A stretch of 25,682 nucleotides of DNA from Clostridia bacterium (GTDB taxonomy: Bacteria; UBA6262; WVXT01; JAUXBS01), in NCBI GenBank assembly GCA_030618495.1, contig JAUXDE010000010.1:1-25682 (forward strand), given 5' to 3'. The first letter of the stretch is position 1, and every line of letters begins with the position of its first letter. Both the position numbers and the translations under genes were made by a program. Under the pieces are notes generated by a model. The model saw only the letters and a program-made list of their open reading frames with translations. It made no database searches and was not told the origin of the DNA. Of this stretch, positions 4,621 through 12,739 are shown in pieces.

Positions 4621-5985
4621 TTAATGCGTGAACCTGCGGCCGTAAATACTTAGTAGTATACCGACTGCCGCCATTGAACTGAGAAGAGAAGACCCCCCGT
4701 AACTTATAAAAGGCAGGGACACCCCCATAACAGGCATCATTCCCATGGTCATCCCGAGATTTATAACAATTTCCACAAAAAGCAACCAGACTATCCCGCC
4801 CGCAAGCAAACTGCCGAAGCGGTCTCTTGCCGTAACGGCAATCCTGATACCTCTCAACAAAATGATAAGGAATAGTACGCTTAAAACAATCGCGCCCATA
4901 AATCCAAATTCTTCGGTAATCACTGAAAAAATGAAATCCGCATGCTGTACCGGCAAGAATCCCAGTTGTCCCTGCGTCCCCTGCAGGAAACCTTTTCCAA
5001 GGAATCCTCCTGAACCTATCGCAACCTGCGACTGAATAATATGATACCCCGTTCCAAAAGGGTCAATGTTCGGATTAATAAAAGCTATGAGACGCTGTTT
5101 TTGATACTGTTTTAGAAACAGCTGAAGCGGATAGGAGGCAAGCATGCCTGACAAAAATACTGCTGATGTTACAATAAAATATTTTATTGAAATATTGAAT
5201 TTCAATTTCACAAGAAAATAATACACTAAATAGAAAATCATTATAATTACAGCCATCATTACCAGCGCATACGGGAAATAACCCAGCACTTTAGCAAAAA
5301 ACTCTGTTATCATTCCATGCTGTATCTGTTTTTGACCCGCGTATGTCAGAAACAGGGGGATCCCGAGAGCCATGCCTGAGAAACCCAGAAAAGCTATTAT
5401 ATGACTAATCCCGACATTGCCAAGATAAAGAATCCCCATGAGTACCGGGAAGAACATAAGCGCTGAACCCATATCGGGCTGTAAAAGAATCAAAGCCATC
5501 GGTATCAACGTTAAGAAAAACGGAGCCGCTAAACTGCCGAATCCCTTCAAATCCCTTCTCAACAACAGCCTGTCAATATACCTGCTGAGCATGATAACAA
5601 GAGCAATTTTTGTAAACTCCGACGGCTGCAGGGTAAAATCCCCGATTGAAAACCAGCTCCTGGCCCCATTAACGTACTTGCCCATAAACAAAACCAGGAC
5701 AAGAAGCAAAATGGATGCCATATATACCAGCCAGGCATATTCTTCCAGCAAATGGTAGTCCATTCCCATTAAAAATATTAAGACCAGAAAACCCGCCAGC
5801 GCAAATGAAACCTGCCTGGCGTAATAAGCGGTATTTACTTCATATGTAGATTTATATGCCGCGCTGAATATCATCAGGCAGCTAAAGGCAATAAGCAGCG
5901 CCATTGCGCCGACAAGCCAAAAGTCTATTCTCCTGGATAGCGCCGTAAAAATACCTGCCCTTATATATTCGTTTTTTCTTTTCAT
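4621..5985 (-). CDS. rodA: Rod shape-determining SEDS glycosyltransferase RodA
   Basis: Membrane peptidoglycan polymerase that works with PBP2 in the elongation (Rod) complex, extending glycan strands from lipid II. SEDS signatures are present: LQPSEFTKIALV with E123, and the end block AIGSGGFLGKGF...QHADFIFSVITEE with the catalytic-type Asp D350. Many hydrophobic segments run through the protein. At 454 aa it is longer than typical RodA (about 370-420 aa). Two extra hydrophobic stretches lie at about 238-290, just before QRLIAFINPNIDPFGTGYH. The start ATG shares one base with the mrdA stop (TAATG), so the two are translationally coupled, matching the partnership of their products. Confidence 0.97.
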   Translation of the reverse strand: MKRKNEYIRAGIFTALSRRIDFWLVGAMALLIAFSCLMIFSAAYKSTYEVNTAYYARQVSFALAGFLVLIFLMGMDYHLLEEYAWLVYMASILLLVLVLFMGKYVNGARSWFSIGDFTLQPSEFTKIALVIMLSRYIDRLLLRRDLKGFGSLAAPFFLTLIPMALILLQPDMGSALMFFPVLMGILYLGNVGISHIIAFLGFSGMALGIPLFLTYAGQKQIQHGMITEFFAKVLGYFPYALVMMAVIIMIFYLVYYFLVKLKFNISIKYFIVTSAVFLSGMLASYPLQLFLKQYQKQRLIAFINPNIDPFGTGYHIIQSQVAIGSGGFLGKGFLQGTQGQLGFLPVQHADFIFSVITEEFGFMGAIVLSVLFLIILLRGIRIAVTARDRFGSLLAGGIVWLLFVEIVINLGMTMGMMPVMGVSLPFISYGGSSLLSSMAAVGILLSIYGRRFTH

Positions 5986-11567: not shown

Positions 11568-12194
11568 TTACTTAGAATACAATTCTACTATCAACTGTTC
11601 CTCAACAGGAATTGAAATATCCTCCCTGCTCGGAAGGTCAAGCATAACACCCTCTTTTTTGTCCGAATCAAACTGTAAATACCTGGGTACGTTCCCCTGT
11701 TCCTTTGATTTTGCAACCACGTCCTTAACCATTTTGAAATCCATCGCTTTTTTGGAGAGGGATATTTTATTGCCTACCTCTACCTGATAGGAGGGCTTGT
11801 TTACCACCACACCGTTCACTCTTACGTGGCAATGAGTAATCAGCTGCCTTGCCTGGCTTTTTGAAGAAGCAATACCAAGCTGATAAACAATATTATCTAA
11901 ACGGCATTCCAACATCTTCAACAACGATACACCCGTCTGCCCCTTCTTCCTGCTTGATCGTTTATAATACAGGTTAAACTGTTTCTCCCTCATTCCCGCC
12001 ATTCTCTTGGCCTTCTGTTTCTCTCTCAACTGCAGCCCGTATTCACTTATCTTACCAGGCCTTCTTCTTGATCCCCGGGGAAATCTACCGGCCGCAGGCT
12101 TATCTACAGGACATTTTGCGGATAAACATCTTTCCCCTTTAAAAAATAATTTTGTATTTTGTTTCCTGCATAACTTGCAAACTGCTTTATTCAA
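11568..12194 (-). CDS. rpsD: 30S ribosomal protein S4, zinc-binding form
   Basis: Primary 16S rRNA binder that nucleates 30S assembly, often also the repressor of its operon. The 208-aa protein keeps the zinc-binding cysteines C6, C9, C23 and C28 (C+ form). The S4 RNA-binding domain is at about 95-160 (MLECRLDNIVYQLGIASSK; RQLITHCHVRVNGVVVNKP). The start is TTG at 12194, supported by GGGAGG nine bases upstream. It is preceded by the largest gap in the ribosomal block (182 bp), which holds a long palindromic structure. Confidence 0.97.
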   Translation of the reverse strand: MNKAVCKLCRKQNTKLFFKGERCLSAKCPVDKPAAGRFPRGSRRRPGKISEYGLQLREKQKAKRMAGMREKQFNLYYKRSSRKKGQTGVSLLKMLECRLDNIVYQLGIASSKSQARQLITHCHVRVNGVVVNKPSYQVEVGNKISLSKKAMDFKMVKDVVAKSKEQGNVPRYLQFDSDKKEGVMLDLPSREDISIPVEEQLIVELYSK

Positions 12195-12261
12195 TATCTT
12201 TATCCTCCCTATTTATCCTGTTTCCTTCTTTTACTTTCTTGCCTTTGCCTTTCTCTCTCAA

Positions 12262-12372
12262 CAGATAGATGTTTTAGCGACGAGGCTTAATTACGAAAGG
12301 TTAAACCCACCCCTTTCGTAATTCAGAGCGAGCCTCTCACGTGAGCGACCCCGGAGCTAAAACATCCATCTG
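12262..12372 (-). repeat. 111-bp nested palindrome between rpsK and rpsD
   Basis: Three nested inverted repeats. The outer arms are 17 nt (12262-12278 and 12356-12372) with one non-match that becomes G-U in minus-strand RNA. The middle arms are GAGGCT/AGCCTC (12282-12287, 12331-12336). The inner arms are a perfect 12 nt (12289-12300, 12312-12323) around an 11-nt loop. A small CTCACGTGAG palindrome (12336-12345) lies in the right internal loop. It begins 4 nt after the rpsK stop and ends 67 nt before the rpsD start. It could be an S4-binding regulatory leader, an mRNA processing site, or a MITE-like insertion. No target duplication is obvious and no U-tract follows, so a simple terminator is unlikely. 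Confidence 0.85.
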
Positions 12373-12376
12373 GCCC

Positions 12377-12739
12377 CTACACTCTTCTTCTCTTAGCAGG
12401 ACGACAACCATTGTGGGGAATTGGGGAAACATCCTTAATTACAATAACTTTTAACCCCACTGCCTGGAGTGATCGTATTGCCGTCTCCCTGCCTGCTCCC
12501 GGCCCCTTCACAAAAACCGAAACCTGCTGCAAACCTTTTTCAATCGCCTTCTTTGCGGCATTTTCAGCTATTATCCCCGCCGCGTATGGAGTGCTCTTTT
12601 TGGCCCCTTTAAACCCGAGTACACCCGCAGAGCACCATGAAATAGTATTTCCCTTCTTGTCGGTTATGGTTATCAGGGTATTGTTAAACGTCGCCTGAAT
12701 ATAAACATGACCTTCGGTTATTTTTACTTTATCCGCCAT
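12377..12739 (-). CDS. rpsK: 30S ribosomal protein S11
   Basis: Platform protein of the small subunit near the mRNA exit/Shine-Dalgarno helix. The 120-aa sequence has the S11 blocks [36 protein letters not shown] and the C-terminal [18 protein letters not shown]. The HNG site is the one known to form isoaspartate in other bacteria. It sits 21 bp behind rpsM. The palindromic element starts almost directly after the stop codon. Confidence 0.98.

Follow-up and report, generated by a model that had tools for sequence, protein, structure and literature searches.

A dispersed, apparently mobile palindromic repeat in sense behind stop codons, with one copy between rpsK and rpsD

The palindrome in the rpsK–rpsD gap

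The stretch of DNA analysed here (25,682 nt, hereafter the window) carries rpsK and rpsD on its minus strand, with a large palindrome and a purine-rich tail between them. The features are given below in the order of transcription; genes were called from open reading frames.

12377–12739, minus strand: rpsK (S11), the upstream gene
12262–12372, minus strand: copy of the palindromic element, from one arm of the outer stem to the other (fold, inverted repeat and 12 core matches in the genome)
12356–12372, minus strand: outer stem P1, 5' arm in the sense direction (both-sided changes in 13 of the 18 pairs of the helix)
12348–12353, minus strand: middle stem P2, 5' arm, CGGGGT (covarying outermost pair; GGAG/CTCC in the sister family)
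12326–12347, minus strand: conserved core CGCTCACGTGAGAGGCTCGCTC (exact in 9 of the 12 genome copies)
12312–12323, minus strand: inner stem P3, 5' arm in the sense direction (homologous P3 covaries in 18 copies of two families)
12289–12300, minus strand: inner stem P3, 3' arm (pairs with 12312–12323; covariation)
12281–12286, minus strand: middle stem P2, 3' arm, GCCTCG (pairs with 12348–12353)
12262–12278, minus strand: outer stem P1, 3' arm (pairs with 12356–12372; alignment of copies)
12195–12261, minus strand: purine-rich tail of 67 nt, from the hairpin to rpsD (similar purine tails follow other copies)
11568–12194, minus strand: rpsD (S4), the downstream gene, with a TTG start

A preliminary description made from the sequence had placed a palindrome at 12262–12372, and an inverted-repeat search and RNA folding confirmed both its existence and its coordinates. 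No local inverted repeat longer than that formed by its arms (12262–12285 and 12349–12372) was found in the window. Folded as RNA, the plus strand of the 111-bp palindrome had a free energy of -45.1 kcal/mol, whereas shuffled versions averaged -24.9 (z = -5.6; none of 200 did as well), and the minus strand, which is the transcribed orientation of this copy, gave a fold of -53.7 with the tail included. Stems of 17, 6 and 12 bp had been proposed, of which the outer and inner ones stood; the 6-bp one proposed between them, GAGGCT/AGCCTC, is possible on the plus strand but is not conserved. The middle stem backed by homologues is CGGGGT/GCCTCG in the transcribed sense, whose outermost pair varies between C-G, G-C and A-U from copy to copy and whose GGAG/CTCC core persists in the sister family described below. 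The 17-bp outer stem provides the terminal inverted repeats expected of a MITE and covaries in other copies; its 5' arm starts 4 nt past the rpsK stop codon (12377–12379). At the other end, a Shine-Dalgarno-like GGGAGGA (12203–12209) lies within the tail upstream of rpsD, and the element's own 3' boundary falls somewhere inside this tail. An intrinsic terminator was rejected as an identity for the hairpin, the sense strand past it being purine-rich (TTGAGAGAGAAAGG) with no U run.

Copies in the genome and their contact with stop codons

The draft genome from which the window derives (1.69 Mb, 179 contigs) was searched with the 22-base core, allowing up to 3 mismatches and using the reversed core as control. 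This yielded 12 matches, 9 of them exact, and none for the control; BLAST returned 15 pieces of the element. Two contigs (C113, positions 1–93, and C132, positions 5734–5905) both terminate inside the element, where the assembly probably broke at the repeat. Because of this, and because guaA and hisH are adjacent in the congener (genome G001), the two copies probably represent a single guaA–hisH site, and the 12 core matches therefore correspond to about 11 sites. The genes flanking the copies, identified by visual inspection of their sequences, include nadK–recN, queC–queE, dnaJ–rsmE, a PIN/TRAM gene–ispD, ahcY, amiC, guaA–hisH and an mnhG-like antiporter gene. A scan of 84,980 species genomes with the exact core, from which the nearest records may have been omitted, gave one match, within an ORF of a member of the Planctomycetota, which was judged to be due to chance.

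All copies with readable neighbours were found beside co-directional genes and in one orientation relative to them. Each of the 11 testable copies lay directly after the stop codon of a gene in its own orientation and upstream of unrelated genes (recN, queE, ispD and others). The upstream stop codon was 14–66 nt ahead of the core in all 11, and in every one of the 11 copies with readable upstream sequence it was inside the outer-stem arm or no more than about 16 nt away; the stop codons of amiC, queC and mnhG are inside the arm. In a 197-kb sample of this genome, 129 of the 152 gaps lay between co-directional genes and contained 76% of all intergenic bases, so that a location within operons is in itself unremarkable. 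It is the uniform orientation and the contact with stop codons that are unexpected; for 11 independent, freely oriented copies, we calculate the chance of uniform orientation as 2^-10.

At one of these sites (L029), an ispD-like ORF starts in the element's purine tail, which gives it a lysine/arginine-rich N-terminal extension longer than that of its counterpart in G001.

Filled and empty junctions in related genomes

In the congener G001, orthologous junctions were located with a chimeric query of upstream-gene tails. The element was missing from all 10 comparable junctions, including rpsK–rpsD, where the gap is about 25 nt. Gaps at these junctions were mostly between a few and about 60 nt, the ahcY gap being longer and filled with unrelated sequence, and the short gaps lacked the purine-rich tail as well. 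The earlier statement that the rpsK–rpsD gap is usually short thus holds for the congener but not for some genomes of the sister family, in which it is longer. Since none of the 10 comparable junctions in G001 has the element, no gene pair appears to need it. G001 bears its own copies at other places. Loss is possible at any one site but would have to have occurred ten separate times.

A covariance model built from 11 copies was searched against 60 genomes, comprising 6 of the phylum and 54 outside it. Matches were obtained in three genomes (G002, G004 and G005) of the other family of the order, hereafter the sister family, and the 54 from outside the phylum gave none. BLAST with one sister-family element recovered 6–22 pieces in each of four genomes of that family, G003 included. 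The sister-family consensus, GGATGAAGGGATAGTTATCGGAGTCGCTCGG...CTCCTGCAACTATCCCTTCATCC, has its stems in the same order as the copies described above, and an inner-loop motif like GCGCTGGGG..ACCT is common to both families. A phage origin was rejected: 2.9 million viral contigs contained no exact copy of a 24-base sequence taken from the sister-family element.

Among 51 distinct 5' ends in the sister family, 39 lay near the end of an upstream ORF of 70 codons or more; these represent about 23 independent sites. Counting upstream genes in the same orientation only, all 39 primary 5' ends had a co-oriented stop codon between -12 and +9 nt, and in 20 of them the stop was the element's own (TGA or TAA at +1, TAG at +9). 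We read the remaining 12 ends as mostly second units in tandem, the rest lying near sequence ends or after short ORFs. A separate listing of both neighbours agreed, save for a small number of single-sided cases (G002:C30, G005:C116) and one ambiguous arm (G004:C41). Three sister-family junctions (s5, s9 and s17) were empty without remnant in another genome. Two that are empty in G003 (s9 and s7) show an ATGA or GTGA stop/start overlap. At three further G003 junctions (s1, s6 and s10) a tail like GGGTGTTAAAAGGTAG was retained and the hairpin was gone, which looks like deletion of the palindrome. Different genomes may have different interiors between the conserved ends at one and the same orthologous site, unrelated sequence having been swapped in; the element is therefore modular, or else other palindromes insert into it.

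The sister-family rpsK–rpsD gap (L123–L126) contains what is left of another palindromic family, AATTTAAAAATAGTTTG...CAAACTATTTTTAAATT, which is also found nested within sister-family elements.

Stem compensation and identity of the element

The stems of the hairpin are maintained by Watson-Crick compensation. Over 11 copies and 31 named pairs, 89.7% of cells were paired, against 35–43% when the pairing was slid, although these values are somewhat favoured by the structure having been chosen on the sequences scored. Both-sided changes occurred in 21 of the 31 pairs, and the covariation score was 0.385, compared with 0.160 for shuffled and 0.03–0.09 for slid controls; related copies share changes, yet the sliding control retains this relatedness and collapses. 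For the inner stem P3, in 18 copies of both families, 94.9% of cells were paired against 19–50% when slid, with a score of 0.510 against 0.137.

The single mismatch of the outer stem in the window is, as originally described, A-C on the plus strand and G-U on the transcribed strand, and this had been taken to favour a role as RNA. That argument fails across the family: in the transcribed strand, the outer and inner stems of the 11 aligned copies contained 4 G-U and 12 A-C, and the inner stem of the 18 copies contained 0 and 6, respectively. As G-U is no commoner than A-C, the fold is apparently kept as a palindrome rather than by selection on the sense RNA. These counts are small; a palindrome kept in the DNA, or template switching, would explain them no less well than would selection acting on the transcript.

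Dispersed, placed uniformly in sense behind stop codons and missing from orthologous junctions, the element is best read as a member of a palindromic repeat family of this phylum that is non-autonomous and apparently mobile (probability about 0.75). A MITE-like or palindromic repeat had been the fallback of the preliminary description, and is supported by the dispersed copies. The first idea there was a leader bound by S4 ahead of rpsD. Position and a stable fold suit it, but at least 10 other copies stand before unrelated genes, the same gap is free of the element in the congener and holds unrelated palindromic sequence in the sister family, and no Rfam family scored above its gathering cut-off in the window. 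An autoregulatory leader would be expected at a single site conserved in relatives; the 12 dispersed core matches and the element-free gap of the congener refute an S4-specific leader, and we give this reading almost no credence. The palindrome is more likely a form recognised or copied as DNA, whether as hairpin or as single strand, than an S4 regulator.

A more general cis-acting RNA, in which the transcribed hairpin would tune operon expression at gene ends and would have spread by selection for that effect (by acting, for instance, as a site of RNase III/E processing, a barrier to 3' exonucleases or a translation uncoupler), is a further alternative. Sense orientation is fixed at all testable sites, the stems covary, and core and P3 loop sequences are conserved between the two families; the strict orientation together with this conservation of core and inner loop could equally reflect selection on RNA. 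There are also precedents at the RNA level in the intercistronic repeats ERIC and neisserial NEMIS, which can affect mRNA (PMC2229807); the present element may do so as well. Set against this are the absence of a G-U preference in the sense strand, the variety of unrelated gene pairs that carry the element, the ten empty congener junctions and the replacement of interiors by unrelated sequence at the same orthologous sites, and we consider a selected RNA function improbable. Movement as a REP-like family by a REP-associated Y1 (IS200/IS605-like) transposase would account for imperfect palindromes in sense orientation, and a search confined to the Y1_Tnp class found one such gene in the genome of the window and several in G002 and G005. 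That single gene (218 aa, L032:1172–1828), however, is flanked by an inverted repeat of its own, GGGGACACGTACCTAATT, and no RAYT bordered by the present element was found; G001, G003 and G004, three of the six genomes, carry the element without a detected Y1_Tnp, as drafts of 76–92% completeness. Y1 as the partner was not supported, and we regard mobilisation by it as very unlikely.

For the mobile repeat, we infer insertion from the empty orthologous sites, and its tolerance at junctions from the sequence. The palindrome would enter tight stop/start junctions of operons, being inserted only, or tolerated only, in sense just past a stop codon. Its 5' end would supply stop codons in the frames used, allowing the upstream protein to end normally, and its purine-rich, Shine-Dalgarno-like 3' tail would let the downstream gene still be initiated; sense insertion or tolerance at stop codons could be understood because the element brings both. 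Comparison of filled and empty junctions gave no constant target-site duplication, boundaries being blurred by divergence, nor could a terminal motif be fixed; no transposition event was observed. A bolder version is that this phylum-specific palindrome targets sites of translation termination, inserting in sense at the stop of the gene being read and remaining silent in the operon by virtue of its stop and ribosome-binding tail, perhaps by a route templated by RNA or coupled to translation, for which other bacterial repeats offer no described precedent. We put this forward as a speculation that is unlikely in its full form.

MIRUs have the same orientation as their operon and insert at DTGA stop/start overlaps. 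The present copies were likewise found at stop/start junctions of co-directional genes in the orientation of the operon, and the overlaps at s9 and s7 are of a similar kind. MIRUs are described as mobile, inserting at start codons and coupling to the gene there with minimal effect, and both are short, dispersed and apparently mobile, occupy tight co-directional junctions and have translation signals that would preserve expression (PMC12548453). In accounts of MIRUs the repeat units contain a small ORF, whereas the present element is a covarying palindrome. In Streptococcus pneumoniae, 36 annotated genes end in a BOX element encoding the stop codon (PMC3049150). BOX thus resembles the present element as a modular repeat that gives genes stop codons, and here too conserved ends enclose a variable interior; however, BOX is over-represented between convergent genes (PMC3049150), whereas the tests made here place the present element only at co-directional junctions and in a single orientation. 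The likeness to MIRU and BOX is one of behaviour, based on a comparison of descriptions, and relation by descent is claimed to neither. ERIC/IRU and Correia/NEMIS share a size of about 100–150 bp, MITE-like character and RNA stem-loops, and ERIC is co-transcribed with its neighbours, but their sequences and hosts are different and a fixed contact with the upstream stop is not reported for them in the excerpted source (PMC2229807). REP/BIME elements with RAYT are also dispersed imperfect palindromes; the present copies are longer and strictly in sense. The element would thus be an independent counterpart of MIRUs, with strong structure, in a little-known lineage unrelated to theirs, and its recognition as a repeat corrects what was likely a false lead, the S4 riboregulator. 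Repeats in one orientation only at operon stop codons raise the question of target choice versus purifying selection, which can be answered by comparing pairs of filled and empty orthologous junctions between related genomes.

Some copies in the genome of the window vary internally. Three of them (L024, L025 and L027) have an insert of 31–38 bp between GATGTCGC-like direct repeats on the 5' side of the core, and several contain an extra hairpin within the inner loop.
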